Shown here piece by piece: positions 905 through 60,266 of a stretch of DNA of 64,000 nt (within the stretch, counting starts at the first letter, position 1; every line of letters starts with the position of its first letter). Under the pieces are notes generated by a model. It ran no database searches and was not told the DNA's origin. It was given only the letters and a program-made list of their open reading frames with translations. The stretch spans positions 2,416,001 through 2,480,000 of the forward strand of contig NZ_CP075190.1 of assembly GCF_020510585.1 (NCBI RefSeq). Direction: 5' to 3'. Position numbers and translations under genes: made by a program. This stretch comes from Ferribacterium limneticum. Its GTDB lineage: Bacteria; Pseudomonadota; Gammaproteobacteria; Burkholderiales; Rhodocyclaceae.

Positions 905-2797
905 ATGACTCGAATTCAACACCCTCTCGAACTCCTGGCGCCGGCCAAGAACGCCGATTTCGGCATCGAAGCCATCAAGCACGGGGCCGACGCCGTCTAC
1001 ATCGGCGGCCCGGCTTTCGGCGCTCGTTACGGCGCCGGCAACGACGTCGCGGAAATACGACGCCTGTGCGATTTCGCCCATCGCTACCGCGCCAGGGTCT
1101 TCGTCGCGCTCAATACCATCCTGCGCGACGACGAGCTCGAAGACAGCCGCCAGCTCGCCTGGCAACTTTACGAAGCCGGGGCCGATGCGCTGATCATCCA
1201 GGACATGGGCCTGCTCGAACTCGACCTGCCGCCCATCCAGCTCCACGCCAGCACGCAGACCGATAATCGCAACGCCGACAAGGTGAGGTTTCTCGAAGAC
1301 GTCGGCTTCTCGCAGGTCGTTCTGGCGCGCGAATGCAGCTTAAACGAAATTATCAAGATTGCTTCGCAAACCAATGTTTCATTGGAATATTTTGTTCATG
1401 GCGCGCTGTGCGTTGCGTTCAGCGGCCAGTGTTACATCAGTCAGGCCCACACCGGGCGCAGCGCCAATCGTGGCGAGTGTTCGCAGGCCTGCCGCCTGCC
1501 CTACACGCTGGTCGACGACAAGGGCAAGACGATCACCGAGAACCAGCATCTACTCTCGATGAAGGACAACAACCAGACCGCCAACATGCTCGATCTGGCC
1601 CGCGCCGGCGTCTGCTCCTTCAAGATCGAGGGGCGGCTCAAAGACCTCAGCTACGTCAAGAACATCACCGCGCACTACCGCGGCCTGCTCGACGAAATCA
1701 TCGCCAACAATCCCGAATTCACCCGCGCCTCAAGCGGCCGCAGCACGTACACCTTCACGCCGCAACCGGACAAGACCTTCAACCGCGGCTACACCGATTA
1801 TTTCGCCAACGACCGCCAGGACGACATCGGCGCCTTCGATTCGCCGGCTTTTGTCGGTGAACTGATCGGCGAGGTTGTCGAAATCGGCGACGGCTCTTTC
1901 ACCGTCAATGCCGAAAAGCCCTTCAACAACGGCGATGGCGTCTGTTTCTACGACGCCCACGGCGAAGTCGTCGGTATGCGCATCAACCGCGCCGACGGCA
2001 AAACCCTGTTCCCGGCCGAAATGCCTGAAGAACTGACCGAAGGCGCCAGCCTCTTCCGCAACCGTGACCAGGAATTCGAGCGTTCGCTGGAAAAGGAATC
2101 GGCCGACCGCCGCATTTCGGTCAAGCCAGCGCTGGTCGAAACCGAAGACGGCTTTGCGCTGACCCTGACCGACGAAGATGGCGTGAATGTTACGGTCAAC
2201 CGGAAAAACGGGCCAAAATCGGAATGGCAACTGGCCCAGAACCCCGAGCCGGCGATGGCCAAGCTCACCGAAAACCTCGGCAAATTCGGCAACACGATGT
2301 TCGTCGCCGAGCCGGTCGAACTCAAACTCAGCCAGCCCTGGTTCATGCCGGTCAGCGCCATCAACGCCCTGCGCCGCGAAGCCACCGAACAACTCGACGC
2401 CGCCCGCATCGCCAGCCACCCGCGCCCGCCGCGCGCCACGCCGGCCGCCAACCCGGTGCCCTACCCGCAGGAAGAACTGACCTACCTCGGCAACGTCTTC
2501 AACGCCAAGGCCCGCCAGTTCTACGAAAAACACGGCGTCAAACTGATCGAGGAAGCCTACGAGGCCGGCAACGAAAAGGGCATGGTCTCGCTCATGATCA
2601 CGCGCCATTGCCTGCGCTACAGCTTCAACCTGTGCCCGAAGGAAGTGAAGCACCTCAAGCCGGACCCGATGACGCTGATCAACGGCAACGAAAAGCTGAT
2701 CCTCAAATTCGACTGCAAGGCCTGCGAAATGCACGTCGTCGGCAAGATGAAGAAGGGCGTGACGCTCAACCTCGGCAGCATCCGCCCCGCCGCCTGA
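905..2797 (+). CDS. rlhA: 23S rRNA 5-hydroxycytidine synthase RlhA (U32 peptidase family)
   Basis: The 630-residue protein matches the long U32-family RNA hydroxylases (E. coli RlhA/YdcP is similar in length), not the shorter tRNA enzyme TrhP. The N-terminal barrel begins with LLAPAKNADFGIEAIKHGAD. Cysteines at about 169, 176, 192 and 196 (CVAFSGQC and GECSQACRLP) are the family's Fe-S candidates. The C-terminal block RHCLRYSFNLCPKE and FDCKACEMHVVGK is typical of RlhA. In E. coli the enzyme hydroxylates C2501 of 23S rRNA using a prephenate-derived group. Residues about 428-440 (TVNRKNGPKSE) are encoded by a copy of the dispersed 36-nt repeat read in frame. Confidence 0.9.
   Translation: MTRIQHPLELLAPAKNADFGIEAIKHGADAVYIGGPAFGARYGAGNDVAEIRRLCDFAHRYRARVFVALNTILRDDELEDSRQLAWQLYEAGADALIIQDMGLLELDLPPIQLHASTQTDNRNADKVRFLEDVGFSQVVLARECSLNEIIKIASQTNVSLEYFVHGALCVAFSGQCYISQAHTGRSANRGECSQACRLPYTLVDDKGKTITENQHLLSMKDNNQTANMLDLARAGVCSFKIEGRLKDLSYVKNITAHYRGLLDEIIANNPEFTRASSGRSTYTFTPQPDKTFNRGYTDYFANDRQDDIGAFDSPAFVGELIGEVVEIGDGSFTVNAEKPFNNGDGVCFYDAHGEVVGMRINRADGKTLFPAEMPEELTEGASLFRNRDQEFERSLEKESADRRISVKPALVETEDGFALTLTDEDGVNVTVNRKNGPKSEWQLAQNPEPAMAKLTENLGKFGNTMFVAEPVELKLSQPWFMPVSAINALRREATEQLDAARIASHPRPPRATPAANPVPYPQEELTYLGNVFNAKARQFYEKHGVKLIEEAYEAGNEKGMVSLMITRHCLRYSFNLCPKEVKHLKPDPMTLINGNEKLILKFDCKACEMHVVGKMKKGVTLNLGSIRPAA
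2190..2225 (+). repeat. dispersed 36-nt repeat, copy inside rlhA
   Basis: This copy starts TTACGGTCAACCGG, continues with AAAAACGGGCCAAAAT and ends CGGAAT. The palindrome CGGT-CA-ACCG is intact and both AT-tracts are recognisable. It is read in frame as TVNRKNGPKSE and does not interrupt rlhA. Confidence 0.7.
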
Positions 2798-2814
2798 TCA
2801 CTCGCCCCGGCTGA

Positions 2815-3525: not shown

Positions 3526-3640
3526 GGCACATCCGGAAATAGGGTCGAGCCAGAATTTTAGCGGATGCTGATACAGGAAGGCGCGCCAGTACGCCCAAAG
3601 CCCGGCTATAGTCTCGCCTGTTGCCCGGTCCCCGATCACC

Positions 3641-4357: not shown

Positions 4358-4426
4358 GCCGAAGGCAGCCGCCCCTCTCCGGACACCGGCCACCATTCTT
4401 TTTGCATTGAGCATTGCCGGCGGCGA

Positions 4427-4454
4427 ACTTAGGAAACAACCCCATGTCCTAAGT
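4427..4454 (+). other. hairpin in the leader of the CBS-domain gene
   Basis: ACTTAGGA (4427-4434) and TCCTAAGT (4447-4454) form a perfect 8-bp stem with a 12-nt loop, about 40 nt upstream of the CBS gene start. There is no T-tract, so it is not a standard terminator. It may be an operator or an mRNA 5' structure. Confidence 0.35.
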
Positions 4455-4495
4455 CAAGGCAGCAACTTACTCAACCCGAAGCGAAAGGATCCATC

Positions 4496-4930: not shown

Positions 4931-4937
4931 ACAAAAA

Positions 4938-4958
4938 AGCGAGCCGTTCAGGCTCGCT
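4938..4958 (-). terminator. rho-independent terminator of the OmpA-like gene
   Basis: AGCGAGCC (4938-4945) pairs with GGCTCGCT (4951-4958) around a 5-nt loop. On the minus strand the stem is followed by six T residues, so it terminates the OmpA-like gene. On the plus strand there is no T run, so it acts less clearly for the CBS gene. Confidence 0.8.
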
Positions 4959-4977
4959 CTGCGCCAGCATAAAACCC

Positions 4978-6218: not shown

Positions 6219-6245
6219 CCTAGCCAATTTTCAGGAGATTCCGTC

Positions 6246-7602: not shown

Positions 7603-7613
7603 AAGCCTTATTG

Positions 7614-7649
7614 CCACGGTCAACCGGAAAAAACGGCCAAAATTGAAAT
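7614..7649 (+). repeat. dispersed 36-nt repeat, copy between the MITE and hipA
   Basis: The copy reads CCACGGTCAACCGG, six A, then CGGCCAAAATTGAAAT, a near-perfect match to the consensus. With the following GAGGTTGAGGCG it shares about 48 bases with the copy at 10738. Confidence 0.85.
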
Positions 7650-7718
7650 GAGGTTGAGGCGGCCAGCCTGCGGCCCCCGGGCGACGCTGCTAGCCGGTTA
7701 TCGCAAATGTACCGTGGC

Positions 7719-9534: not shown

Positions 9535-9556
9535 CCATAACCCGGCATCCGACTTG

Positions 9557-9592
9557 CCACGGTCAACCGGGAAAAATGGCCAAAAATGAAAT
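9557..9592 (+). repeat. dispersed 36-nt repeat, copy before the nucleotidyltransferase gene
   Basis: CCACGGTCAACCGG followed by GAAAAATGGCCAAAAATGAA and AT. It lies at the right end of the duplicated segment, 17 bp before an operator-like inverted repeat. Confidence 0.82.
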
Positions 9593-9608
9593 CGGGTAGC
9601 GCAAGGGT

Positions 9609-10714: not shown

Positions 10715-10737
10715 GAACGATGACCTCCGGCTGAAGG

Positions 10738-10773
10738 TTACGGTCAACCGGAAAAAATGGCCAAAATTGAAAT
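10738..10773 (+). repeat. dispersed 36-nt repeat, copy after the nucleotidyltransferase gene
   Basis: TTACGGTCAACCGG, six A, then TGGCCAAAATTGAAAT: identical to the consensus except for the first two bases. It starts 24 bp after the stop codon of the nucleotidyltransferase gene. The 100 bases that follow, up to the TOPRIM gene, hold no gene I can support. Confidence 0.87.
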
Positions 10774-10889
10774 GGGGTTGAGGCGATGGCAAAGCCAAAG
10801 CAACCAGACCTGAGTAAAACCGTGGTCTGTCCCCTATTGTCGTACTATAAACATCGTGCCAATGTAAATCTCAAAACCGTGATGTCTGA

Positions 10890-16107: not shown

Positions 16108-17241
16108 TCAGGCGACGAAAACCGGGGCAAAACCGCCGCCCAGCGTCCGGAAATTGGTGGTTTGGCCTTGGTACAGGCGGGCGGCGACGAGCTGGATGCG
16201 GCCGGCGTAGACGTAGCAGCGGATGTCGGCCTTCATGGTCGTTTCAACGCCGTCGACGGGCACGACATACTCGGAAGGCAGCGCGATTTCCTGGGCGATG
16301 TAGCCGCCGTGCAGGATTTCCTCGAAGACGCGCTTGGTCAGCTTGTCGCCACGATAGGCGGCGCGGCCGCCGAAGCCGGCGGGCGGCTTGAAAAACCAGC
16401 GTTTGCGTTCGGCCCAGAATTGTTCGCCCTGTTCAGGCGTGACGGCGACGGTTTTCGGAATGCCGGCGAGCAGGGTCTGGCGGGTGGCTTCGTCGACGCC
16501 CAGCACCTGCAGCGCGGTGTCGTCGGAGAGCTGCATGAGGTTGCGCTTGTCGGCGTAGAGGGCGTGGGCGCGCGGATGTGGCGTGATGACAACGCCGCCC
16601 GATTCGAAAATTGCCCGAATTTTCCGGTTGACCGTAGCATCGAGCGCAAAGTCGGTCAGGCGGTTGTAAATCAGGTCGATGGGCTGGCCGGCGTGCAAAA
16701 GTTGCTCGCCGTCGCTCTCGAATTCGCCCGGATCGGCCACCACGGCGGCAATGCCATGCTGCTCGAAGAGTTCCTTGAAGAGCGCGAATTCGGGGGCGAG
16801 AAACTGTTCGGCCGGGTTTTCGTCGACGATGGCGATGCGTTGCAGCGGTGCGTCGCCGCGTTCCAGACGCCATTCCTTGCGGAACATGGCGACGAACTCT
16901 TCGCGAATCCGGGCGCCCTCTTCCGCGTGGCCATGCGAGGCGAGCAGGTAGACGTTGAGCAGGCCGCCGCCGGCGTTGGTATTGATTTCGATGAGCTTGG
17001 GGCCGCTCTCGGTCAGATGAAAATCGTAGCCCATGAAGACGCCGCGCGACTTGACCGGCAGGCGGGCGATTTCCGGCGCCTGGGCCAGCGCGTGCGCCTG
17101 ATAGGCCGGCATGGCGATGACCGATTCGATGGCCGTGATGATGTCGGCCATGGCCTGCATCGGCCCGGCGGCGATGGTGATGTCGGCGCTGGAAAAGAAT
17201 TGCGGCTGCTGGGCGCGCATTTGCTCGAAGATGGTTTTCAT
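16108..17241 (-). CDS. ATP-grasp-like protein of unknown substrate
   Basis: The 377-residue protein resembles ATP-grasp ligases in its last third: RKRWFFKPPAGFGGRAAYRG, then GGYIAQEIALPSEY, ADIRCYVYAGRIQLVAARLY and TNFRTLGGGFAPV. The N-terminal half has SRGVFMGYDFHLTESGPKLI followed by EINTNAGGG. A ligase or kinase activity is likely, but I do not recognise the substrate. The ATG at 17241 lies 5 bases after the dinG stop; the longer open frame upstream is antisense-like DNA inside dinG and is discarded. Residues around 200-212 (TVNRKIRAIFE) come from a copy of the dispersed repeat. Confidence 0.65.
   Translation of the reverse strand: MKTIFEQMRAQQPQFFSSADITIAAGPMQAMADIITAIESVIAMPAYQAHALAQAPEIARLPVKSRGVFMGYDFHLTESGPKLIEINTNAGGGLLNVYLLASHGHAEEGARIREEFVAMFRKEWRLERGDAPLQRIAIVDENPAEQFLAPEFALFKELFEQHGIAAVVADPGEFESDGEQLLHAGQPIDLIYNRLTDFALDATVNRKIRAIFESGGVVITPHPRAHALYADKRNLMQLSDDTALQVLGVDEATRQTLLAGIPKTVAVTPEQGEQFWAERKRWFFKPPAGFGGRAAYRGDKLTKRVFEEILHGGYIAQEIALPSEYVVPVDGVETTMKADIRCYVYAGRIQLVAARLYQGQTTNFRTLGGGFAPVFVA
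16602..16637 (-). repeat. dispersed 36-nt repeat, copy inside the ATP-grasp-like gene
   Basis: On the minus strand it reads CTACGGTCAACCGG, AAAATTCGGGC, then AATTTTCGAAT. The palindrome is intact. It is read in frame as ATVNRKIRAIFE. Confidence 0.72.
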
Positions 17242-17246: not shown

Positions 17247-19169
17247 TTACCGGTTGGCGAAGAAATCGAGGACGACCTGCAGTTCGCGGGTCCGTTTCAT
17301 GGGTGGCAGACTTTGCCAGACGCGGCGGCCATACGGCTTTGATATAAGTCGTGGATCGCACATCATGAGCACGCCCTTGTCGTTCTCGTCGCGGATCAGC
17401 CGGCCGGCGCCCTGCTTGACGTTGATAACGGCGCGCGGCAGCTGGTATTCCATGAAGGCGTTGCGGCCTTCCTTTTTCATCTGCTCGATGCGCGCCGAGA
17501 GCACTGGATCGTCGGGCGGCGCGAAGGGAATCTTGTCGATGACAACGAGCGACAGCGCCTCGCCGCGCACGTCGACGCCTTCCCAGAAGCTCTGGCTGCC
17601 GACCAGTATCGAATTCCCATGGTGCCGGAAGCGTTGCAGCAGGTCGTTCTTGCTGCCCTCGCCCTGAACGAGCAACGGCATGTCGATGTTTTCGTCTTCG
17701 AGCTTGGCCTTGAGCAGTTCGTGCGTGCGGCGCATGGCGCGCAGGCTGGTGCACAGGAAGAAGGCCCCGCCGTTGGCCGCCTTGACGGCCGGCCAGGCGG
17801 CCTCGACGACGGCGTCGGTGTAGTTCCAGGCGTTCGGGTCGGGCATGCCGAGCGGGGCGTAGAGAATGGCCTGCTTGTCGTAGTCGAAGGGGCTGTGCCA
17901 GCAGGCGGAATCCGGCTCGCCTAGGCCGAGTTCGGCGCAGTAGTGATGGAACTTGCCCTGCACGGCCAGGGTAGCCGAGGTGAAGATCCACGCCCGCGGA
18001 TGGCCGCCCATCTGCTTGCGGAAAATTTCGGCGACGTTGAGCGGCGTGGCGTTGAGCTGAAGCGAATGGGTGAAGGCTTCGGCCCAGCGGACGTAGCCGG
18101 GCGTCGGGTTCTGCCACTGGCCGAGGTGCTGGACGAGCTCGGTGGCGCGTTGCCAGCACTTCTCCAGCCCCTCGGCGCGTTCGGCCTGGGTTTCGAGCAA
18201 GGCGGCAAAGGCAACGACCTCGGCTTCGAGCGCCTTTAGGGCGATTTCAAAATCGGGCTTTTCTTCCAGTTGACCGTAGGAGAAGCGGCCGCTGTCGACG
18301 CCGACGGCCAGACGCAGATCCTTGGCGGCCTTTTCGACTTTCTTGCTGGTTTCCGGCAGCGCCAGGCAGTCGCGGGCGTTGGTCAATGCTTCAGCGCGGA
18401 CATCGCGGGCCAGATCGAGCACCTGCGCCGTCGAAATGCTGTCGCCGAAGAACAGCGTCGCCACCTCCGGCAACTGGTGGGCTTCGTCGAAGATGACCGT
18501 GTTGCAGGCCGGCAGCAGTTCGGCCATGCCTTCGTCGCGGAGCATGACGTCGGCGAAGAACAGGTGGTGATTGACGACAACCAGATCGGCCGCCATCGCC
18601 TCGCGCCGGGCGAGCATGACGAAGCATTCCTTGTAATCCGGACACTCCTGGCCGAGGCAGTTGTCGCGCGTCGAGGTGGCGTGGCTCCACACCGGTGAGT
18701 TCTCGGAAACCTCGATGCATTCGGCCTTGTCGCCGCTCTGCGTGGTCTTGGCGAAGACCGAGATACGACGCGCGTCGGCGGCATCCTCGCGGGTCAGGAA
18801 ACGGCCATCGGCGATGGCGTGTTGCAGGTGGTAAGGGCAAACGTAGTTGGCCCGGCCCTTCAACAAGGCGATCTTGACCGGCGCCTTGAGGGCGTCGCGG
18901 ACCATCGGCAGGTCTTTGTTGAAGAGCTGGTCCTGCAGGGTCTTGGTGCCGGTCGACACGATGACCTTGCCGCCCGACTGGAGTGCCGGGACGAGGTAGG
19001 CGAAGGTCTTGCCCGTGCCGGTGCCGGCCTCGGCGATGAAGACCGAACAGCCTTTGATGGCGGCGGCGATGCGCTCGGCCATGTCGAGCTGCTGTTCGCG
19101 GATGCGATAACCGCTGATGGCCCGGGCGAGCGGGCCTTCGGGAGAGAATATTTCCGGGAGGGAAGACAA
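17247..19169 (-). CDS. dinG: DinG-family ATP-dependent DNA helicase
   Basis: The 640-residue protein is an XPD-like superfamily 2 helicase: Walker A AGTGTGKT (48-55), four Fe-S cluster cysteines (about 111, 171, 176, 182; CPYHLQH and CLGQECPDYKEC), DEAH in IFDEAHQL (about 228-233) and helicase motif VI near QGAGRLIRDENDKG. It lacks the exonuclease domain found in Gram-positive DinG. It unwinds 5'-tailed DNA, D-loops and R-loops. The YoaA subgroup is equally possible by length; the name is kept at family level. Confidence 0.9.
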   Translation of the reverse strand: MSSLPEIFSPEGPLARAISGYRIREQQLDMAERIAAAIKGCSVFIAEAGTGTGKTFAYLVPALQSGGKVIVSTGTKTLQDQLFNKDLPMVRDALKAPVKIALLKGRANYVCPYHLQHAIADGRFLTREDAADARRISVFAKTTQSGDKAECIEVSENSPVWSHATSTRDNCLGQECPDYKECFVMLARREAMAADLVVVNHHLFFADVMLRDEGMAELLPACNTVIFDEAHQLPEVATLFFGDSISTAQVLDLARDVRAEALTNARDCLALPETSKKVEKAAKDLRLAVGVDSGRFSYGQLEEKPDFEIALKALEAEVVAFAALLETQAERAEGLEKCWQRATELVQHLGQWQNPTPGYVRWAEAFTHSLQLNATPLNVAEIFRKQMGGHPRAWIFTSATLAVQGKFHHYCAELGLGEPDSACWHSPFDYDKQAILYAPLGMPDPNAWNYTDAVVEAAWPAVKAANGGAFFLCTSLRAMRRTHELLKAKLEDENIDMPLLVQGEGSKNDLLQRFRHHGNSILVGSQSFWEGVDVRGEALSLVVIDKIPFAPPDDPVLSARIEQMKKEGRNAFMEYQLPRAVINVKQGAGRLIRDENDKGVLMMCDPRLISKPYGRRVWQSLPPMKRTRELQVVLDFFANR

Positions 19170-23039: not shown

Positions 23040-23056
23040 CCTTCAAAACGCCATTC

Positions 23057-23070
23057 TCACGGTCAACCGG
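23057..23070 (+). repeat. dispersed repeat, truncated core only
   Basis: TCACGGTCAACCGG is the first 14 bases of the 36-nt repeat without the AT-tracts. A full copy follows six bases later, giving a partial tandem arrangement. Confidence 0.65.
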
Positions 23071-23075
23071 GCTTG

Positions 23076-23111
23076 CTACGGTCTACCGAAAAAAATGGCC
23101 AAAATTGAAAT
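23076..23111 (+). repeat. dispersed 36-nt repeat with altered palindrome centre
   Basis: CTACGGTCTACCG, then seven A, then TGGCCAAAATTGAAAT. The palindrome arms CGGT and ACCG are kept while the central CA is changed to CT. It sits between the converging RNase H-like and 2H phosphoesterase genes. Confidence 0.8.
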
Positions 23112-23114
23112 CGC

Positions 23115-25593: not shown

Positions 25594-25615
25594 AAGGCCG
25601 GGGAAACCCGGCCTT
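25594..25615. terminator. bidirectional terminator after ppsA
   Basis: AAGGCCGGG and CCCGGCCTT form a 9-bp stem with a GAAA loop. On the plus strand five T follow, and on the minus strand TTTTCGTTT. It would end ppsA and the small ORF at 25480. It is an inverted near-copy of the hairpin at 23848. Confidence 0.8.
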
Positions 25616-25649
25616 TTTATTTTTGGCTCATTTTTACGGTAGACCGTGG
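25614..25649 (-). repeat. dispersed 36-nt repeat, copy downstream of ppsA
   Basis: On the minus strand it reads CCACGGTCTACCG, TAAAAATGAGCC, then AAAAATA. The palindrome arms are kept with the CT centre, as in the copy at 23076. It begins 22 bp after the ppsA stop and runs into the terminator T-tract. Confidence 0.7.
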
Positions 25650-25670
25650 AAACCGCTATCAGAACGGATA

Positions 25671-32160: not shown

Positions 32161-32182
32161 TTTCGTCGCAAAAAACCGGTTT

Positions 32183-32218
32183 CCACGGTCAACCGGAAAA
32201 AAAAACCAAAAATGAAAT
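32183..32218 (+). repeat. dispersed 36-nt repeat between the inverted extragenic repeats
   Basis: CCACGGTCAACCGG followed by an A-run of nine, CCAAAAATGAAAT. Here the GG of TGGCC is replaced by A. It lies between the two arms of the larger inverted repeat. Confidence 0.78.
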
Positions 32219-32250
32219 CTGTTATTCAGGCTCCCAAGCTCAAGCACGGA

Positions 32251-32519: not shown

Positions 32520-35285
32520 ATGAGCGACCTCATCCACGCCCTGAGCGACCACCTCCCGCCGCACCAGATCATCGTCGATGACCTCCGTCGCCTGGCCTAT
32601 GGCACCGACGCAAGCTTCTACCGCCTGACGCCCGAGGTCATCGCCGTCATCGAAAACGAGGAAGAAGCGCGCCAGGTCTTAAATGCCGCCAAGCAACACA
32701 ACCGCCCCATCACCTTCCGGGCCGCCGGAACCAGCCTCTCCGGCCAGGCCATCACCGATGGCATCCTCGCCCTGATCGGCGAAGGCTTCGCCACCTATGA
32801 ACTCAACGCCGACGCCAGCCAGGTCAAGGTCGGCCCCGGCATCGTCGGCGGCGAAGTGAACCGTCGTCTCGCCCCGTTCGGCAAGAAGATCGGCCCTGAC
32901 CCCGCCTCCATCGGCGCCGCCAAGATCGGTGGCATCGCTGCCAACAACGCCTCCGGCATGTGCTGCGGCACGGCCCAGAACAGCTACCGGACGCTGGCCG
33001 GCATGCGTGTCATGCTGGCCGACGGCAGCGTGCTCGACACTGAGGATCACATGAGCGTCGATGCTTTCTCGAAGAGCCACGCCGTACTGCTCGGCGAACT
33101 GGAGCGCCTCGGTCGCGACACGCGCAACAACCCGAAGCTGGCCGAGCGCATCCGCCACAAGTTCAAGATCAAGAACACGACCGGCTACAGCCTCAACGCG
33201 CTGATCGATTACGAAGATCCGATCGACATCCTGAGCCACCTGATGATCGGCTCAGAAGGCACGCTCGGCTTCATGTCGCGCATCACCTACAACACCGTCG
33301 TCGAAGACCCGTTCAAGGCGTCAGCGCTGGTTTTCTTCCCGGATATCCGCACTGCCTGCGAGGCCGTCATCCGCCTCAAGCCACAGCCGGTTTCCGCCGT
33401 CGAACTGCTCGACCGCCCCGCCCTGCATTCGGTTGAAAACAAACCCGGCCTACCGGCCATCATGCGCGAATTGGGCGAGGAAGCCGCCGCACTGCTCATC
33501 GAAGTCCGGTCTTCCACGGTCGACGGGATAAATGAGCGAATTTCGCAAGTCCATACTGCGATGGCGGGCGTCGCCACGGTGGAGCCGATGGTTTTCTCGA
33601 TCGATCCGGCGACCTGCGAGATGTACTGGAAAGTCCGCAAGGGCACCTTCCCGGCCGTCGGCGCCATGCGCCGCACGGGCACCACGGTGCTCATCGAGGA
33701 CGTCGCCTTCCACATTGAAAACCTGGCCGACGCCACGCTCGACCTGCAAGCCCTGCTCCGCCACCACGGCTACCACGAGGCGATCATTTTCGGCCACGCG
33801 CTGGAAGGCAATCTGCACTTCGTCATCACCCAGGATTTCGGCGATGCCAGCGAAGTCGACCGTTACGCCCGCTTCATGGACGATCTCTGCCACATGGTGG
33901 TCGATAAATACGACGGCTCGCTCAAGGCCGAGCACGGCACCGGCCGCAACATGGCGCCCTTCGTCGAGCTCGAATGGGGCAAGGAAGCAGCCGACCTGAT
34001 GCGCCGGATCAAGGCCTTGTTCGACCCGGAAAACCGCCTCAACCCGGGCGTCATCCTCAACGACAATCCGCGCGCCCACCTCGAAAACCTCAAGCCGATG
34101 CCGGCCGCCGAAGACATCGTCGACCGCTGCATCGAATGCGGCTTCTGCGAACCGCTCTGCCCCTCGCACCGCCTGACGCTGAGCCCGCGCCAGCGCATCA
34201 CCAGCGTGCGCGAACTGGCGCGGCGTGCTGCAGCGGGCGAACCGGCTGGCAGCGTCGGCGAGGACTACGCCTACATGGGCCTCGACACCTGCGCCGCCTG
34301 CGGCCTGTGCTCGACAGCCTGCCCGGTCGGCATCGACACCGGCGATCTGACCCGCCGCCTGCGCGGGCGTAAGCTTGGCGACACGGCGCGCGCCGTCAAT
34401 GCCTGGACCGGGGAGCATTTCGGCACGCTGGCCAACGCCTCGCGCCTCGGCCTGAATGTCGGCCACGCCGTTTCCGGCGTCCTCGGCGACAACCTCCTCG
34501 GCCGCATTTCGGGCGGTGCCTGGAAAAAGAACATGCCGCACGCCGGGAAAGCCCCAGTGGCGCGCACCACGCAAGGCGACCCGGTCGTCTACTTCCCGAC
34601 TTGCGGCGGCCGCATCTTTGGCCCATCAACGGCCGGTGAAGCTCAACTCGGCAACGTCATTCTCGACCTGCTGACCCGCGCTGGCTACGCGCCGATCCTG
34701 CCAGAAGGTTTCGACAGCCTGTGCTGCGGCCAGATGCTGGCCAGCAAGGGGATGGCCGAAGAAGCCGACGGTATGTCCAACACGCTGGAAGCGGCGCTTA
34801 TGAAAGCCTCGCAGAACGGCAAATACCCGGTAATCATGGACGCCAGCACCTGCACCGTCCGCATGCAGAAACATCTCGCCGACCGCCTCAAACTCTACGA
34901 CTTCCACGAATTCGCCGTCGATGCGCTGCTGCCGCGTCTGATGATCAGCAAGCAATCAGGCCCGGTTGCCCTGCACGTCAATTGCAGCGTGCGCAAGACC
35001 GGCTCCGACGCCAAGCTAAAAATCCTGCTCGCCGCCTGCGTCGAGCAGATCATCGAACCAGCCGGCGTGACCTGCTGCGGCTTTGCCGGTGACCGTGGTT
35101 TTGCTGTGCCAGAACTGAACCGCCACGCCCTGCGCCACATCCACAAGGATCTGCCGGCCAACTGCGCCTGCGGCGTCTCCACCAACCGCACCTGCGAAAT
35201 CGGCCTGACTGCCGAAACCGGCATCAACTACCAGTCCATCGCCTATTTGCTCGAGAAATGCAGTCGACCGCAGCAAACATGTTGA
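32520..35285 (+). CDS. fused FAD/Fe-S D-lactate dehydrogenase (Dld-II type)
   Basis: The 921-residue protein is a fusion: FAD-binding_4 domain (about 35-260, FRAAGTSLSGQAITDG, GSEGTLGFMSRI), FAD-oxidase C domain (about 260-510, ending AEHGTGRN and DPENRLNPG), two 4Fe-4S motifs (CIECGFCEPLCPSH near 536; CAACGLCSTACPVG near 591) and a CCG domain with CCGQML and CCGFAGDRGF. This architecture belongs to membrane-associated D-lactate (or D-2-hydroxyacid) dehydrogenases. With LldEFG next door, both lactate isomers would feed pyruvate to PpsA. Confidence 0.9.
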   Translation: MSDLIHALSDHLPPHQIIVDDLRRLAYGTDASFYRLTPEVIAVIENEEEARQVLNAAKQHNRPITFRAAGTSLSGQAITDGILALIGEGFATYELNADASQVKVGPGIVGGEVNRRLAPFGKKIGPDPASIGAAKIGGIAANNASGMCCGTAQNSYRTLAGMRVMLADGSVLDTEDHMSVDAFSKSHAVLLGELERLGRDTRNNPKLAERIRHKFKIKNTTGYSLNALIDYEDPIDILSHLMIGSEGTLGFMSRITYNTVVEDPFKASALVFFPDIRTACEAVIRLKPQPVSAVELLDRPALHSVENKPGLPAIMRELGEEAAALLIEVRSSTVDGINERISQVHTAMAGVATVEPMVFSIDPATCEMYWKVRKGTFPAVGAMRRTGTTVLIEDVAFHIENLADATLDLQALLRHHGYHEAIIFGHALEGNLHFVITQDFGDASEVDRYARFMDDLCHMVVDKYDGSLKAEHGTGRNMAPFVELEWGKEAADLMRRIKALFDPENRLNPGVILNDNPRAHLENLKPMPAAEDIVDRCIECGFCEPLCPSHRLTLSPRQRITSVRELARRAAAGEPAGSVGEDYAYMGLDTCAACGLCSTACPVGIDTGDLTRRLRGRKLGDTARAVNAWTGEHFGTLANASRLGLNVGHAVSGVLGDNLLGRISGGAWKKNMPHAGKAPVARTTQGDPVVYFPTCGGRIFGPSTAGEAQLGNVILDLLTRAGYAPILPEGFDSLCCGQMLASKGMAEEADGMSNTLEAALMKASQNGKYPVIMDASTCTVRMQKHLADRLKLYDFHEFAVDALLPRLMISKQSGPVALHVNCSVRKTGSDAKLKILLAACVEQIIEPAGVTCCGFAGDRGFAVPELNRHALRHIHKDLPANCACGVSTNRTCEIGLTAETGINYQSIAYLLEKCSRPQQTC
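33514..33549 (+). repeat. possible diverged dispersed repeat in the D-lactate dehydrogenase gene
   Basis: CCACGGTCGACGGGATAAAT and GAGCGAATTTCG resemble the consensus, but the palindrome is broken. It reads STVDGINERIS in frame. Marginal; it may be chance. Confidence 0.3.
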
Positions 35286-35916: not shown

Positions 35917-38679
35917 ATGCATCAAGCCTCACTGGACACCAGCAAGGACGAACCCCTTCGCGACGATATTCGCCTGCTTGGCCGCATCCTCGGCGATACA
36001 GTCCGTGAGCAGGAGGGCGAATCGGTGTTCGACATCGTCGAACGCGTCCGCCAGACTGCCGTGCGTTTTGCCCGCGACGGCGACCCGGCAGCCCGCAACG
36101 AACTCGCCGCCCTGCTCGACCCGCTGCCGCGCGACACCACCCAGGCCGTCGTCCGCGCCTTCAGCTACTTCCTGCAACTGGCCAACATTGCCGAGGACGA
36201 GCACCACATCCGCCGGCGGCGCGCCCACGACCTGGCCGGCTCGCCGCCGCGCGAAGGCAGTTTGATTTTTGCCCTGGATTCCCTGTCGACCGCAGCGGTC
36301 TCGCCGGAAGCCATCGCCGACTTCTTCGCCCATGCCGTCGTCGCCCCGGTGCTCACCGCCCACCCGACCGAAGTCCAGCGTCAGAGCCTGATCCGCAACC
36401 ACCGCGACCTGGCCCGCCTGCTCGACCAGCGCGAACGCCTGCAGATGACGCCGGAAGAGGAAGCCGAGAACGATCTCGGCATCGCCAATTCCATCCTCAC
36501 CCTGTGGCAGTCGCGCATGCTGCGCCCGGTACGCCTCAAGGTGCTCGACGAGGTCAAGAACGGCATCACCTACTTCAAGGAAACCTTCTTCACCGAACTG
36601 CCGCGCCTCTACATCCAGGCGACGCAGCAACTGCAAAAACGCTACCCCGACACCCATTGGGCGCTACCGCCCTTCTTCCGCGTCGGCAGCTGGATCGGCG
36701 GCGACCGCGACGGCAATCCGTTTGTTACTGCCGAGATCCTGCGTGAAGCCCTGCGCCTGCAATCGGCCGCGGCGCTCAATCACTATCTCGAAGAAATCCA
36801 CGAACTGGGCGGCGAATTGCCACTCTCCGACCTGCTCGTTCAGGTCACGCCGGAACTGTTGGCGCTGGCCGAACACTCCACCGACCACTCGCCGCAACGC
36901 GCCGACGAGCCCTATCGCCGCGCCCTCTCCGGCATTTATGCCCGCCTCGCCGCGACCGCCCGCGTGCTCGACCATGTCGAGCCAGTGCGCCACGAAATAG
37001 GCCACGCCGATGCTTACGAAACGCCGGAAGCCCTGCGCGCCGACCTCAAGGTACTCAACAATTCGCTCAAGCTGAACGGCAGCGGCAACCTGGCGGGCGG
37101 CCGCCTGCGCCGGCTGCTGCGCGCAGTGCAGGTTTTCGGCTTCCACCTGGCGCCGATCGACCTGCGCCAGAACTCCGAAGTCCATGCCCGCAGCGTCGCC
37201 GAACTGCTGGCCGGGGCCGGTCGTTGCCCGGACTACGAAGCACTTTCCGAAATTGAGCGAATTTCCCTGTTGACCGTGGAAATCAGCACCCCGCGCCCGC
37301 TTTACTCGCCCTACCTGAGCTATTCGGAGGAAACGCAGGGCGAACTGGCCATTTTCTTCGCCGCCCGCGAACTGCGCCAGCGCTACGGCGCCGCCGCGCT
37401 GCCCAATTGCATCATCTCGAAGACCGACGGCGTTTCCGACCTGCTCGAACTCGCCCTGCTGCTCAAGGAATCCGGCCTGCTGCTGCCCGGCGCGCAGCCG
37501 AAGCTGGAAGTGAACATCATCCCGCTCTTCGAAACCATCGAAGACCTGCAGAAGAGCGCGGCAACGATGGCCGGCGTCTTCGCCATCCCGGCCTACCGCG
37601 AACTGATCGCCGGCCGTGGTGACGAGCACGAAGTCATGCTCGGCTACTCCGATTCCAACAAGGACGGCGGCTTCCTGACCTCGGGCTGGGAACTCTACAA
37701 GGCCGAAATCGAACTGGCCCAGGTCTTCAAGCAGCACGGCGTTCGCCTGCGCCTGTTCCACGGCCGTGGCGGCTCAGTTGGTCGCGGTGGCGGCCCGACC
37801 TATCACGCCATCCTGGCCCAGCCAGCCGGCGCGGTTTCCGGCCAGATCCGCCTGACCGAACAGGGCGAAGTCATTTCGACCAAATACGGCAACGCCGATA
37901 CCGGCCGCCGCAACCTCGAAGTGCTGCTCGCCGCGACGCTCGAAGCCAGCCTGACCGACCATGAAAACAAGGTCGAGCCGGCCGAGCAGTTCCACGCCGT
38001 AATGGACGAGCTCTCGCTGCGCGCCTTCAACGCCTATCGCGGCCTGGTCTATGAAACGCCGGGCTTCACGACCTATTTCCGCCAATCGACGGTGGTTTCC
38101 GAAATCGCCCTGCTCAACATCGGGAGTCGCCCAGCCTCGCGCAAGGCCTCCGAGCGCATCGAAGATCTACGAGCCATCCCCTGGGTGTTCAGCTGGGCGC
38201 AATGCCGCCTGATGCTGCCCGGCTGGTACGGCTTCGGTGCTGCGGTCGACGGCTATCTGGAGGCCAATCCGCAAGGCCTGACTACGCTGCGCCGCATGGT
38301 CAAATCCTGGCCCTTCTTCCAGAGCCTGCTCTCCAACATGGACATGGTGCTGGCCAAGACCGACCTCGCCATCGCCTCGCGCTACGCCGAACTGGTCGCC
38401 GATGTTGAACTGCGCGAGCGCATCTTCAGCCAGATCAAGGCCGAATGGGCGCTGACCAGAAAGCACCTGCTGGCCATTCTCGAACAGGATGATTTCCTCG
38501 CCGACAACCCCATGCTCAAGCGCTCGCTACAACTGCGCTCGCCCTACATGGACCCGCTCAACCACCTGCAGGTCGAACTGCTCAAGCGTCACCGCGCTGG
38601 CGAAACCGACGAGCGCGTCGCCCGCGGCATCCACCTGTCGATCAATGGCGTCGCTTCCGGACTGCGCAACAGCGGGTAA
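35917..38679 (+). CDS. ppc: phosphoenolpyruvate carboxylase
   Basis: The 920-residue enzyme contains the catalytic histidine in TAHPTEVQRQSL (about residues 145-156), GSWIGGDRDGNP, the lysine/arginine motif GYSDSNKDGG and FHGRGGSVGRGGGP, and ends with the conserved small C-terminus (RNSG). It carboxylates PEP to oxaloacetate to refill the TCA cycle. It precedes ppsR by 9 bases. Near residue 450 the antisense of a diverged dispersed repeat may be present (LLTVEI), but this segment is conserved in other Ppc proteins. Confidence 0.96.
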   Translation: MHQASLDTSKDEPLRDDIRLLGRILGDTVREQEGESVFDIVERVRQTAVRFARDGDPAARNELAALLDPLPRDTTQAVVRAFSYFLQLANIAEDEHHIRRRRAHDLAGSPPREGSLIFALDSLSTAAVSPEAIADFFAHAVVAPVLTAHPTEVQRQSLIRNHRDLARLLDQRERLQMTPEEEAENDLGIANSILTLWQSRMLRPVRLKVLDEVKNGITYFKETFFTELPRLYIQATQQLQKRYPDTHWALPPFFRVGSWIGGDRDGNPFVTAEILREALRLQSAAALNHYLEEIHELGGELPLSDLLVQVTPELLALAEHSTDHSPQRADEPYRRALSGIYARLAATARVLDHVEPVRHEIGHADAYETPEALRADLKVLNNSLKLNGSGNLAGGRLRRLLRAVQVFGFHLAPIDLRQNSEVHARSVAELLAGAGRCPDYEALSEIERISLLTVEISTPRPLYSPYLSYSEETQGELAIFFAARELRQRYGAAALPNCIISKTDGVSDLLELALLLKESGLLLPGAQPKLEVNIIPLFETIEDLQKSAATMAGVFAIPAYRELIAGRGDEHEVMLGYSDSNKDGGFLTSGWELYKAEIELAQVFKQHGVRLRLFHGRGGSVGRGGGPTYHAILAQPAGAVSGQIRLTEQGEVISTKYGNADTGRRNLEVLLAATLEASLTDHENKVEPAEQFHAVMDELSLRAFNAYRGLVYETPGFTTYFRQSTVVSEIALLNIGSRPASRKASERIEDLRAIPWVFSWAQCRLMLPGWYGFGAAVDGYLEANPQGLTTLRRMVKSWPFFQSLLSNMDMVLAKTDLAIASRYAELVADVELRERIFSQIKAEWALTRKHLLAILEQDDFLADNPMLKRSLQLRSPYMDPLNHLQVELLKRHRAGETDERVARGIHLSINGVASGLRNSG
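37244..37279 (-). repeat. possible diverged dispersed repeat in ppc (antisense)
   Basis: On the minus strand it reads CCACGGTCAACAGGGAAATT then CGCTCAATTTCG. The second palindrome arm is changed and the peptide LLTVEI fits normal Ppc conservation, so it may be coincidence. Confidence 0.3.
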
Positions 38680-40958: not shown

Positions 40959-41729
40959 TTAGCCCAGCCGGCGCCGAACCATCTCGAACAGGCAAACTGC
41001 CGCAGCAGCAGCTACATTCAGCGACTCGACGGCACCCGGCATCGGTATCTTGATGCGTAGCCCGGCGGCTGCTATCAGTTCAGGGTGGACACCCTGCCCT
41101 TCGGCCCCAAACACCCAGGCTATCGGCCCATCCAGTTTGGCGCCATAAAGCGAAGTGGCATCGTCCAGACAGGTGACCGCCGTAGTGCCTTCGTAGCTGG
41201 CCATGAAACCAGCCAGATCGCACTCTTCATGGATAGCCAGCGCGAAGTGCGCACCCTGCCCGGCGCGCAGAACCTTGGGTGACCAGGGCGAAGCGCAGCC
41301 CGGCGACAGCAATGCCTGCTTGATGCCAGCCGCCGCCGCCGTGCGCAGCAACGTACCGACATTGCCGGGATCCTGCACCCCGTCTATCAAAATTGCGTCT
41401 TTTTTCCGGTTGACCGTGGCATTTGCATGCGGCGTCTTGATCAGCGCCAGCAAACCGCTCGGCGTATCAACCAGGCCGAGGTCACGCATCAGGCTATCGG
41501 CCAGAACGACCGTTTCCCGGCCTTCGACAAACCCGGCCACTTCGCCGCCAGCCGGCGCCGATTCGGCAACGATCAAGGTGTCCACCGGCCCAAATGCGGC
41601 CTCGTAAGCCTCGACCAGATGCACACCATCAAGCAGCGTTTGCCCGGTTTTTCGGCGCTCGCGCCCGGACTCGGCCAGCCGCTTGAGCAACTTGAAAAAC
41701 GGGTTGTCGCGCGACTGGATCAGCTTCAT
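40959..41729 (-). CDS. TrmH/SpoU family RNA 2'-O-methyltransferase
   Basis: The 256-residue protein has an N-terminal substrate-binding domain (about 1-95) and the SPOUT fold with the three motifs [30 protein letters not shown] and [20 protein letters not shown]. It methylates ribose in rRNA or tRNA; RlmB and the TsnR-like group are both possible. It is the last gene of the long rpsB-led run and overlaps rnhB by 4 bases. Residues near 102-114 ([11 protein letters not shown]) are encoded by a copy of the dispersed repeat, just before the SPOUT domain. Confidence 0.88.
41384..41419 (-). repeat. dispersed 36-nt repeat, copy in the SpoU methyltransferase gene
   Basis: On the minus strand it reads CCACGGTCAACCGG, six A, GACGCAATTTTGATAG. 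The palindrome is intact and the A-tract perfect; it is read in frame as [11 protein letters not shown]. Confidence 0.78.
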
Positions 41730-51902: not shown

Positions 51903-52656
51903 TCGGTTTTTCCACCAGTTGTTCGCTGGTTCGGCCAAAGCGACGTTCGCGCTGTTGAAACGACGTGATCGCCTTGTCAAACTCCGCCGTGTCGAAATCA
52001 GGCCAGAGAATAGGTGTGAAATAGAGTTCGGTATAGGCCAGTTGCCAGAGCAGGAAATTACTGATCCGCTCCTCGCCGCCGGTGCGAATGAACAAATCGG
52101 GTTCCGGCGCAAAACTCATCGACAAATGCGGTTCGAGATCACTCTCCTGCCAGCCGTCGCGCTTTTCGGGCTGGGTGGCCAGCATTTGATTGGTCGCCTG
52201 CATGATGTCCCAGCGCCCGCCGTAGTTGGCGGCGATGGTCAGGTCGAGACGGGTATTGCCGGCAGTCCTCGCCTCGGCCTGGCGAATCAGTTCCTGCAGA
52301 CGGGGCTCGAAACGCGACAAGTCGCCGATGATGCGCAGGCGAACACCATTGCGGTCCAGCTTGTCGACTTCCTGCTCCAGTGCCTTGACGAAGAGCTGCA
52401 TGAGCAGCGACACCTCGTCCTGCGGTCGACGCCAATTTTCGGACGAAAACGCAAAGAGGGTCAGGTACTGGATGCCGCGCTCAAGGCAGGCGCGAACCAT
52501 TTCGCGAACCAGTTCGACACCTTTGACATGACCGGCGACTCGCGGCAGGAAGCGTTTCTTCGCCCAGCGGCCGTTGCCATCCATGATGACGGCGACGTGC
52601 CGGGGCACGACCGCCGCTGGCGGAACCTGTCGTGTTGAACTTGAAAAGAGGGCCAT
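51895..52656 (-). CDS. uppS: undecaprenyl diphosphate synthase
   Basis: The 253-residue cis-prenyltransferase has [16 protein letters not shown] (about 20-35, catalytic Asp26), [13 protein letters not shown] and [20 protein letters not shown] (about 205-224). It makes the C55 lipid carrier for peptidoglycan and O-antigen, using isoprenoids from the dxr pathway. It starts 27 bases after frr. Confidence 0.96.
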
Positions 52657-55877: not shown

Positions 55878-56789
55878 TCAATAACCATTCTGCTTGAGCG
55901 CCAGCAACTGCAGCATGCGCTCCAGATAAGGTTGCCAGTCGGGCATCTGCAAGCCGAAGTCGGTTTCGAGGCGGGTGCAGTCGAGACGCGAGTTGGCCGG
56001 GCGCCGGGCCGGCGTCGGATACTGTGCCGTCGCGATGGCGCGAATTGCTTCCGGCTTCAGGCGCAGATCGAAGCCCGGCATCTGCCCGGCCAGCCCGACG
56101 ATGGTTCGGGCAAACTCGCACCAGCTGACCGGTCGTGCCGCGGCCAGATGGTAGATTTCATTTTTGGCCATTTTTTCCGGTTGACCGTGGCGAACCATGG
56201 CCAGCACCACCCCGGTCACCGTCGCGATCAGCGCCGCCGGGGTCGGCGAACCGATCTGGTCATCGACGACATTGAGGCTGTCCTTTTCCCGCGCCAGACG
56301 CAGGATGGTCTTGACGAAATTGCCGCCGCGCGCGCCAAACACCCAACTGGTACGAAAGATCAGCGACCGGCCGCCGGCGGCGCGAATCGCTTCCTCACCG
56401 GCCAGCTTGGTCCGCCCGTAAACACTCTGCGGCGCCGTCGGATCGGTTTCGACATAAGACGTGGTCTTGCTGCCGTCGTAGACGTAGTCGGTCGAGTAAT
56501 GGACGAGCAAGGCGCCGAGTGCGGCAGCCTCTTCGGCCAGAATACCGGGAGCCTCGGCATTGATCCGGTGCGCCAGTTCGGGTTCGGACTCGGCCTTGTC
56601 TACAGCCGTGTAGGCCGTTGCGTTGACGATGACCGAGGGCCGCAGCTGACGAACAACGGAACGAATCTGCTCCGCATCGGCCAAATCGCATTGAGACCGG
56701 CCACAAGCCACCACCGGCCCGTGCGGCGCCAGCGAACGTTGGAGTTGCCAGCCAACCTGGCCATCCTTGCCGAGCAGAAGAATTGTCAT
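55878..56789 (-). CDS. rfbD: dTDP-4-dehydrorhamnose reductase
   Basis: The 303-residue short-chain dehydrogenase has the nucleotide motif GKDGQVGWQL (7-16), STDYVYDG and the catalytic YGRTKLAGEEA (Tyr near 127). It reduces dTDP-4-keto-rhamnose to dTDP-L-rhamnose. The other rhamnose genes (rfbA, rfbB, rfbC) are not adjacent. The ATG at 56789 (MTILLLGKDG) is used. A copy of the dispersed repeat is read in frame as HGQPEKMAKNEI near residues 201-212. Confidence 0.9.
   Translation of the reverse strand: MTILLLGKDGQVGWQLQRSLAPHGPVVACGRSQCDLADAEQIRSVVRQLRPSVIVNATAYTAVDKAESEPELAHRINAEAPGILAEEAAALGALLVHYSTDYVYDGSKTTSYVETDPTAPQSVYGRTKLAGEEAIRAAGGRSLIFRTSWVFGARGGNFVKTILRLAREKDSLNVVDDQIGSPTPAALIATVTGVVLAMVRHGQPEKMAKNEIYHLAAARPVSWCEFARTIVGLAGQMPGFDLRLKPEAIRAIATAQYPTPARRPANSRLDCTRLETDFGLQMPDWQPYLERMLQLLALKQNGY
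56155..56190 (-). repeat. dispersed 36-nt repeat, copy in rfbD
   Basis: On the minus strand it reads CCACGGTCAACCGG, six A, TGGCCAAAAATGAAAT, only one base from the consensus. The frame differs from the other genic copies, giving HGQPEKMAKNEI. Confidence 0.88.
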
Positions 56790-57705: not shown

Positions 57706-60266
57706 TGGGCTGCGATGTCGCCGCCCTGCGGGCTGAAGTCAAGGCGGCACAGATCCGCCTTCAGGAAAATTACGAACGGACCGGCGACGCCGAAGCGCTA
57801 CTCGCCGAACGTAGCCGGCAGGTCGACAGCGTTCTCGAAAGACTCTGGGCCTCGTTCGATTTTCCCGCCACTCTGGCCTTGGCCGCAGTCGGCGGCTACG
57901 GTCGCGGCGAACTTTATCCGGCTTCCGATATAGACCTGCTGATCCTCCTGCCCAAGGAAGCGAACGGCGCCCTGCAGGAAAAACTGGAAAGGCTGATCGG
58001 CTCCTTCTGGGACATCGGTCTGGAGATCGGGCACAGTGTCCGCACCATCCAGGACTGCCTGAACGAAGCGGAAAACGACATCACGGTGCAGACCGCCCTG
58101 CTTGAGGCTCGCCTGCTGACCGGCAACGCCAAGCTCTTCGCAACCTTCCAGAAGCGCCTGCGCGGCCATCTCGACCCCCTCGTTTTCTGCGAAGCCAAGC
58201 AGATTGAGCAACAGGAACGTCACCTCCGTTTCAACGAGACCCCCTATAGCCTGGAACCCAACTGCAAGGACTCCCCTGGCGGCCTGCGCGACTTTCAGGT
58301 CATTTTCTGGATCGCCAAGGCGGCTGGCTACGGGTCAACCTGGGAGGAATTGCACAAGAACGGCATCATCACGCTCGAAGGCATGACCCAGGCCCGGGAG
58401 TGCCAGGAATACCTGTCCCACCTGCGCATTCGCCTGCATTTGATGATCGGGCGGCGTGAAGATCGCCTGCTCTTCGACTACCAGAGCAACCTCGCCGCCA
58501 AGTACGGATTCGTCTCGAACGAAGCCAAACGCGCCTCCGAGCAACTCATGCAGGTGTACTACCGCAACGCCAAAACGGTCAGCCTGCTCAATACCATCCT
58601 GCTGCAAAACATGGCATCGGCGCTGACCCCGGAAAACGAACAGACGCCGCAGCCGCTCGACGACAATTTCCAGATGGTCGGCAACCTGCTCGACGTCCGG
58701 GACGAAGCCCTGTTCGAAAAAAGCCCGGCGGCGATTTTCGACAGCTTCCTGGTTATGCAGGAAACCCACGAACTGTCCGGCATGACCACCCGCACGCTGC
58801 GCGCCCTGTGGCGGGCCCGCGAGCAGATCACGCCGGAATTCCGGGCCGATCCGGAAAACCGGGCGATGTTCCTCAAGTTACTGCAAAGCGACCGCGGCAT
58901 CATTCATGAATTCCGGCGCATGAACCAGCTCGACATTCTCGGCGCCTACCTACCGAATTTCGGGCGCATCGTCGGTCAGATGCAGCACGACCTGTTCCAC
59001 GTCTACACCGTCGACCAGCACATCCTGCAAGTCCTGCGCAACATCCGGCGCTTCACGATGAGCGAGTTTGCTCACGAATATCCGTTGTGCTCACGCATCG
59101 TCAGCGAACTGGACCGTCCGTGGCTGCTCTATATTGCCGCCCTGTTTCACGATATTGCCAAGGGTCGCGGCGGCGATCACTCGGAGCTGGGCACCGCCGA
59201 TGCCTTGGAATTTTGCCAAAATCACCGGTTGACCGTGGAAGACACGGAATTGGTCGTCTGGCTGGTCAGAAATCACCTCGTCATGTCGCAGGTCGCCCAG
59301 AAGGAAGACCTCAGCGATCCCGACGTCATCGCCAATTTCGTCAAACTGGTCGGCGACATCCGCCACCTGCAGGCGCTCTATCTACTGACCCACGCCGACA
59401 TCCGCGGTACCAGCCCGAAAGTGTGGAACCACTGGAAAGGCAAGCTGCTGGCTGACCTCTACTATCTGACCCTGCACCATCTGAATCTGGGTGACGCGCC
59501 TGCCGCGCACGGCGTCATCGCCGACCGTCAGGCCGAAGCAATGCGCCTGCTGCGCTTCTTCGCCCTTTCCGACACCGTCCACGAACGCCTCTGGAAACAG
59601 CTCGACACCGTCTATTTCCTGCGCCATTCGGCGGAAGAAATCGCCTGGCACACCCGCTCGCTGCACTACCGCATCTACAACAACCAGCCGGTCGTCCGTG
59701 CCCGCCCCTACCAGGAAGGCGACGGCCTGCAGGTCATGGTCTACACCCAGGACCAGCCCGATCTTTTCGCCCGTATCGTCGGCTTCTTCGCCCGCGCCGG
59801 TTACAGCATCGTCGACGCCAAGATTCACACCACGGCGCACGGCTACGCGCTCGACAGCTTCGTAGTGCTGGATGTCGAAAATCGCGACAATGACCGGGAA
59901 ATGGTCGCTTACATCGAGCACGAACTGGAACAGCGCCTGGTACAGCAGATGCCAATCGACGTGCCATCCGCGGGTCGCCTGTCAAGACAGGTCAAGCATT
60001 TCCCGATCAAGCCGGAGGTCGACATCCGCGGTGACGAAAAAGGCTCGAATTTCATCTTGTCGCTGATCGCCGCCGACCGGCCTGGCCTGCTCTACACCGT
60101 TGCCAACACGCTGGCCGAACACGGTGCCAACCTGCATACCGCCAAAATCACGACGCTCGGCGAACGGGCCGAAGACGTTTTCCTGATCAGCGGCGGCGAC
60201 CTGCGCGACACCGGCAAACGCATCCGCCTGGAAACCGAGCTGATGGAGCGCCTGAAGATCGGTTAG
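57705..60266 (+). CDS. glnD: bifunctional uridylyltransferase/uridylyl-removing enzyme GlnD
   Basis: The 853-residue enzyme has the nucleotidyltransferase motif [18 protein letters not shown] (about 64-81), the HD hydrolase motif [17 protein letters not shown] (about 480-496) and two C-terminal ACT domains (about 675-750 and 785-850). It modifies PII proteins in response to glutamine. A repeat copy, antisense, lies in codons for [10 protein letters not shown] near residues 504-513; the local protein length is unchanged compared with other GlnD proteins. Confidence 0.96.
59203..59238 (-). repeat. dispersed 36-nt repeat, antisense copy in glnD
   Basis: On the minus strand it reads CCACGGTCAACCGG, TGATTTTGGC, AAAATTCCAAGG. 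Palindrome intact; the first A-tract is T-rich instead. It is coding in the opposite strand of glnD. Confidence 0.65.

Follow-up and report, generated by a model that had tools for sequence, protein, structure and literature searches.

A dispersed repeat and its anatomy

The DNA considered here (the window) is a stretch of 64,000 nucleotides with a GC content of 59%, positions 2,416,001–2,480,000 of the 4.42-Mb single-contig genome of Ferribacterium limneticum (GCF_020510585.1, NZ_CP075190.1; G000 in the genome set), and it carries, within and between its genes, copies of an oriented 42-bp repeat that is probably a DNA uptake sequence (DUS). With up to three mismatches, CCACGGTCAACCGGAAAAAA is matched 11 times in the window (mean 0.02 and largest count 1 in shuffled sequences), and CGGTNNACCG is matched 14 times where 1.07 matches are expected. 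The initial annotation of this stretch had listed eleven clear copies and held that they fit neither an ordinary repetitive extragenic palindrome (REP) nor a random motif; that judgment holds, the repeat is present at the places described (first copy at 2190, last at 59235), and the eleven clear copies stand, with a total that is larger than the earlier list. Across the whole genome, the 17-mer with at most one mismatch has 413 matches (207 forward and 206 reverse) and its reversed control has none, a count that is neither at the level of chance nor confined to the window.

A position matrix was refined on 864 kb, one fifth of the genome, consisting of 40 evenly spaced 20-kb stretches and the window. 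Its consensus is GATTGCCACGGTCAACCGGAAAAAATGGCCAAAATTGAAATC, with ∼49 bits over background, a figure inflated by the picking of sites for their similarity. In this sample, 176 sites exceed 8 bits, and none does so with the reversed matrix or with five column-permuted matrices, which extrapolates to ∼900 copies per genome or about one per 5 kb. By the same matrix, 18 sites exceed 8 bits in the window, 11 of them in genes and 7 between genes. Among known RNA families searched for at the window copies, only a tRNA attains its gathering score in the window.

The core of the motif is RCGGTCRAC at positions −1 to +7, counted from the C of CGGT as 0. It is followed in this dialect by CGG and by AT tracts at +11 to +16, +22 to +27, and +29 to +32, with a GC-rich GGCC at +18 to +21; the AT tracts are spaced by about one helical turn. 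A 10-bp palindrome (CGGT-N2-ACCG) had been proposed as the unit that is kept, but of its halves, the left one (CGGT) is exact in 82 of the 83 in-gene copies of the sample and the right one (ACCG) in only 36, so that the palindrome is rejected as the recognized unit and is incidental.

Position relative to genes and terminators

Genes were taken from our own simple caller (86% coding), by which 83 of the 176 copies lie in genes, 14 over a gene edge, and 79 between genes. Near-perfect copies (>55 bits) are mostly intergenic (42/66), whereas degenerate copies (8–30 bits) are mostly in genes (23/31). Within genes, 51 copies lie on the strand of the gene and 32 on the opposite strand, and frames 0, 1, and 2 are used unequally (1, 37, and 13 copies on the same strand; 19, 11, and 2 on the opposite strand), as would be expected if the copies must leave the protein readable.

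Copies between genes are concentrated at gene ends. Of their distances to neighboring 3′ ends, 62 of 89 are no longer than 60 bp, compared with 16.5% for random intergenic positions, and 5′ ends show no excess of intergenic copies (16/67; random 21%). The density of copies is 1.2 per kb in convergent gaps, compared with 0.47–0.80 in other types of gap (p = 0.006). An earlier remark that some window copies begin close to a gene end is therefore general (62/89), with the cores at 10741, 23060, 23079, and 25614 lying within 3 to 26 bp of a called 3′ end. The corresponding intergenic copies in the window, with their scores in the matrix scan, are 10733..10774 (forward strand, 60.5 bits), which lies at a gene 3′ end, 23052..23093 (forward, 8.7 bits) and 23071..23112 (forward, 54.7 bits, with the center CT), which overlap, and 25613..25654 (reverse, 45.6 bits), which lies by the 3′ end of the phosphoenolpyruvate (PEP) synthase gene and overlaps a terminator-like hairpin. 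The others are 7609..7650 (64.1 bits), 9552..9593 (60.6 bits), and 32178..32219 (58.4 bits), all on the forward strand. The stretch 23052–23112 is a double-core site, in which the second core follows the first at 19 bp.

In a simple scan, terminator-like hairpins overlap 15 of 85 intergenic or gene-edge copies (>30 bits) and 24 of 400 random positions (p = 0.001). In all 15 cases, the overlapping hairpin is on the strand opposite the motif, and in one of them on both strands. With the origin and terminus placed only from the GC skew of the sample, the motif has no replichore polarity (68 of 155 copies on the leading strand, p = 0.15), and a polar motif of the type of FtsK-orienting polar sequences (KOPS) or Chi is rejected, there being no strand bias by replichore.

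Origin of the copies within genes

Protein-guided alignments of orthologues were made at 7 of the 11 in-gene window copies, those of rmlD and glnD with named relatives that include Dechloromonas denitrificans, D. hortensis, D. agitata, and Azonexus species. No insertion or deletion is seen at the copy in 191 of 194 orthologue rows. Alignments are gapless in 45 of 46 rows at the near-perfect copy in rmlD (56154..56195, reverse strand, 61.0 bits) and in 61 of 61 rows at the copy in glnD (59202..59243, reverse, 34.2 bits). The remaining five sites were compared over 20 genomes. Site 33517 (33509..33550, forward, 32.4 bits), in the gene 32520–35285, is gapless in 18 of 18 rows, as are the two sites in the PEP carboxylase gene in 20 of 20 rows each, namely the shorter-dialect copy at site 36260 (36259..36300, reverse, 26.0 bits) and the copy at site 37244 (37243..37284, reverse, 45.0 bits), and site 41384 in an rRNA-methyltransferase-like gene, 40959–41729 (41383..41424, reverse, 47.0 bits), in 19 of 19. 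A weak shorter-dialect copy at site 35238 (35237..35278, reverse, 10.3 bits), also in the gene 32520–35285, is gapless in 8 of 10 rows; the three rows with a gap are thus one of rmlD and two at the C-terminal end of this site.

The protein encoded by rmlD follows the motif, reading MVRHGQPEKMAKNEIYH where the motif is present and MLRQGRAMEVVEHRLYH, of equal length, in a motif-free relative. Because the alignments are gapless and codons are overwritten, the seven tested copies arose by substitution, a claim that is confined to copies within genes. In blastn comparisons of the same sites, gaps occur in some rows, and the intergenic site 32186 is gapped in 8 of 10 rows. Copies can also be missing in genomes of the same dialect; for example, G154 lacks those at 33517 and 36260, and G133 lacks that at 35238.

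The other in-gene copies of the window are located at 2185..2226 (forward, 54.7 bits) in the gene 905–2797, at 16601..16642 (reverse, 50.5 bits) in the gene 16108–17241, at 18243..18284 (reverse, 41.9 bits) in a yoaA-type helicase gene, 17247–19169, and, as a weak copy, at 52415..52456 (forward, 15.2 bits) in a uppS-type gene, 51895–52608.

Dialects and distribution among relatives

Among 76 genomes of the genus (Dechloromonas/Azonexus), 11 have the present form of the motif, 22 a shorter form, 9 an intermediate, and 34 neither, by cut-offs of our own under which genomes with neither form may have a dialect that was not looked for. The sequence ACGGTCAACCGG has 97–462 copies in the 11 genomes and no more than 45 in any other (reversed control at most 7). 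In 22 other genomes, GCGGTCGAC has a density of at least 150 per Mb that exceeds its control more than 1.45-fold, with a maximum of 1,758 copies (G170). Profiles around CGGTCRAC sites in five genomes (G170, G122, G147, G190, and the present one) have one common frame of core and AT tracts, in which AT is enriched near +12 to +16, weakly so in G170, and near +23 to +27. Homologous positions can hold different dialects in different species, for example at site 41384.

In a tree of PEP carboxylase from 21 genomes, the six genomes with this dialect fall into one clade (98/96) together with one motif-less genome, the transitional G147 stands beside that clade, and motif-less genomes are scattered, with five changes, as with shuffled labels. 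The pattern suggests repeated loss of the motif within the genus, in a tree of a single gene in which 8 of 18 inner forks are weak. The genome G166 has 40 copies of the core of this dialect, one of its motif copies being located between genes where the window has site 32186, while those of its in-gene sites that were aligned lack the motif, as if its tag were decaying after loss.

The motif is restricted to one genus in the draws made. In a draw of 121 genomes from the family, the 17-mer has at most three matches outside the genus, and in a draw of 300 genomes from the order, the shorter core with the second AT tract has 80 matches in the present genome, 200 in G062, 11 in G112, and no more than 4 in any other genome. 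Bare GCGGTCGAC exceeds its reversed control tenfold or more in some other genera, though with modest counts (371 vs. 20 in G106; 217 vs. 15 in G079), but this control is imperfect and the pattern with the AT tract was used instead. An excess of k-mers on loci of relatives was uninformative, since orthologous loci have common k-mers, and a search for 9-mers in excess in three motif-less genomes (54–74 kb each) had weak power and gave no clear uptake-like word. In another genus, contig C15 of G038 has three motif matches within 8 kb (3513–11507) and the rest of that genome has none, which points to transfer or contamination.

Foreign DNA and the interrupted comEC

The motif is rare in recently acquired DNA. 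The samples below 57% GC (5 of 41, 100 kb) contain two copies of more than 20 bits, compared with 153 in the other 764 kb (p = 2e-6). The comEC gene of this genome is split by 43.3 kb (G000:C1:2720413–2763732) flanked by the 5-bp repeat AGCAA, and the insert contains no motif copy above 8 bits, with 7 copies in the 16.7 kb beside it. Since it encodes a DDE transposase (rve, Mu-transpos_C) and a TniB-type ATPase, the insert is read as a Tn7/Tn5053-like transposon. The split in comEC may leave the strain unable to transform at present, as long as the element stays in place; in G133, which has the same dialect, comEC is whole.

According to our reading of the match list, the pieces of comEC lie kilobases apart on one contig, at several positions, in nine other genomes of the genus (G121, G129, G130, G154, G166, G169, G174, G191, and G192). 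The comEC region of G121 has a 4.7-kb transposase-bearing stretch in common with the present genome at 81% identity. Interruption of comEC by transposable elements is also described in the available part of a report on Piscirickettsia (PMC12955456).

Competence genes and a candidate receptor

Models of the competence genes are matched above cut-off in most of the 76 genomes, motif-less ones included (comEC in 68, dprA in 73, and comEA in 67). This agrees with an uptake role but does not set the motif-bearing genomes apart, and comEC is below cut-off or missing in the motif-bearing G139 and G163. The model of the ComP_DUS-type pilin (PF16732) has matches in 70 of the 76 genomes, including the present one, and in none of 14 controls. 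Its gene here adjoins one whose product is read as IspH. By analogy only, this pilin is a candidate receptor for the motif.

A putative uptake sequence and its alternatives

In known systems, DNA is sorted at the step of uptake by a short motif enriched in the genome. Within the accessible part of a 2025 account, the Neisseriaceae and the Pasteurellaceae are the only families known to do so (PMC12616744), and two families are likewise given in the available part of PMC5031613. Sequence-selective uptake has been suggested for Verminephrobacter, with no motif given in the portion of text examined (PMC4212676). Titles and the starts of abstracts listed by searches of open-licence PMC text mention no such motif in Rhodocyclales, Dechloromonas, Azonexus, or Betaproteobacteria. 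The word Dechloromonas is absent from PMC1852404, and “competence,” “natural transformation,” and “comEC” are absent from the D. aromatica genome paper (PMC2907700).

The present repeat resembles the uptake signal sequence (USS) of the Pasteurellaceae (Haemophilus influenzae) in having hundreds of copies on both strands, in and between genes, and in the order of a GC-rich core followed by AT tracts; in the USS, the central GCGG bases are crucial and AT tracts are present, according to the accessible text of PMC7811141. Its shorter dialect contains TGCGGT, as does AAGTGCGGT, a resemblance that is not a test of descent. Overlap with terminators is a further likeness, USS in terminators being reported in the part available of PMC1852404. 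Unlike the USS, it has a longer core (RCGGTCRAC), a 42-bp motif, and a host of a different bacterial class, and the pasteurellacean 9-mers are not enriched in the 864 kb (AAGTGCGGT 1 and ACAAGCGGT 2 matches; reversed controls 8 and 27). The DUS of the Neisseriaceae is likewise a tag shared at the level of genus to family, its dialects follow phylogeny, and some relatives have none, with eight dialects and five relatives lacking an obvious DUS in the accessible part of PMC3630211. It too has a betaproteobacterial host, and a ComP_DUS-type pilin is encoded here; neisserial DUS are not enriched in the 864 kb (GCCGTCTGAA 3 matches, reversed control 0; ATGCCGTCTGAA 0). By sequence, the repeat is neither DUS nor USS, and by analogy it would work like them.

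Because origin by substitution, dialects, rarity in foreign DNA, and bias to gene ends are the behavior of DUS and USS, the repeat is probably a self tag of this kind belonging to the Dechloromonas/Azonexus lineage, which would be the third lineage with one. Of the three options named in the initial annotation, an uptake-type signal is thereby the best supported, with some use in terminators agreeing as well. In such a system, a surface receptor of the type IV pilus DNA-uptake machinery, possibly pilin-like, would bind the core RCGGTCRAC, and the AT tracts downstream would bend or open and so ease entry of the duplex. Tagged DNA would be taken up and recombined more often, and point mutations towards the consensus, in or between genes, would be spread by the bias in uptake up to a density of about one copy per 5 kb. 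Shifts in receptor specificity would let the copies drift to a new dialect, and loss of uptake would leave them to decay. It also seems rather likely that uptake self-recognition has arisen here a third time, convergent with the pasteurellacean layout of a GC-rich core and phased AT tracts. The motif would then be longer than the published ones compared here, a dialect change from GCGGTCGAC through GCGGTCAAC with a partial tail to ACGGTCAACCGGAAAAAATGGCCAAAATTGAAAT would be seen between related species, and Tn7/Tn5053-like transposons would strike the uptake channel gene comEC.

Several observations weigh against an uptake sequence. The ∼49 bits, inflated by selection as they are, lie far above what is needed to mark 900 places, and the motif is longer than the 9–12 nt of the DUS and USS consensus given in the part available of PMC12616744; this surplus of information is the chief anomaly of the repeat. 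The presence of competence genes does not follow that of the motif, since motif-less genomes have them also, and no comEA match above cut-off is found in 5 of 33 motif-bearing genomes (G144, G152, G157, G172, and G190), of which G157 and G172 are less than 80% complete. A dprA match is missing from G177, which has the shorter dialect and is 99% complete. The split comEC of the present genome belongs here too, and interrupted comEC is not significantly linked to absence of the motif (3/29 vs. 7/36, p = 0.49, with split or whole judged by reading the match list and 11 undecided genomes dropped). The ComP_DUS-type pilin is present whatever the motif of the genome, and its sequence and charge, compared by eye in 14 genomes, show no clear pattern by dialect; as a dialect-tracking receptor it is rejected.

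The repeat might be the site of a cytoplasmic chromosome-organizing or segregation protein (nucleoid-associated, or KOPS-, Chi-, or matS-like). A long oriented motif at about one per 5 kb across the sampled chromosome would suit such a protein, as would AT tracts fit for DNA bending, and newly acquired DNA would lack the motif in this case as well. This option of the initial annotation is unlikely, fitting less well with the missing replichore polarity and near-equal counts on the two strands, with a patchy presence in one genus with apparent repeated loss and dialect change, and with proteins that are bent to keep the motif. That the repeat is a transcription terminator or 3′-end element is very doubtful, since 83 of the 176 copies lie in genes, on either strand, and 70 of the 85 intergenic or gene-edge copies have no hairpin overlap in the simple scan; the nearness of intergenic copies to 3′ ends and the 15 copies that do overlap a hairpin speak for it, but a role in terminators is a known side use of DUS and USS, as stated in the accessible text of PMC1852404.

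Spread by insertion, as a miniature inverted-repeat transposable element (MITE) or a REP-like element, is hardly credible. Dispersed short repeats with a palindrome, many of them by gene ends, are a feature shared with REP and MITE, there are many near-identical copies with the near-perfect ones mostly intergenic, composite variants exist, and the intergenic site 32186 is gapped. Unlike REP and MITE, about half of the present copies lie in genes and, where tested, arose by substitution. A mobile repeat is rejected for the in-gene copies by the gapless alignment with motif-free orthologues, which contradicts the third earlier option, and the degenerate copies are mostly in genes and the shorter dialect occurs at homologous positions.

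If the repeat is an uptake sequence, a third, environmental lineage would allow the evolution of uptake bias to be tested independently. The 76 genomes, with two main dialects, intermediates, and apparent repeated losses, would make receptor co-variation and dialect switching directly open to study, and the motif would allow prediction of the DNA that passes between these bacteria and provide a tag for their transformation.

Composite and duplicated copies

Four intergenic composites (L009:10710, L010:8252, L024:19704, and L042:3555) consist of the core followed by GGTTTACTACGTGAAACGTAAAA or nearly so, with the tail of the motif repeated after it in three of the four; they are found in the 864 kb of this genome and in none of the other loci compared. 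The exact 15-mer ACGGTCAACCGGAAA is present in 27 stretches of IMG/VR contigs (L204–L230). At 2772844 and 2774219 of the genome (G000:C1, L133), one motif-bearing coding stretch is present in two copies separated by 1.4 kb, each of which matches one single place in G133 and G126; this seems to reflect a partial gene duplication.

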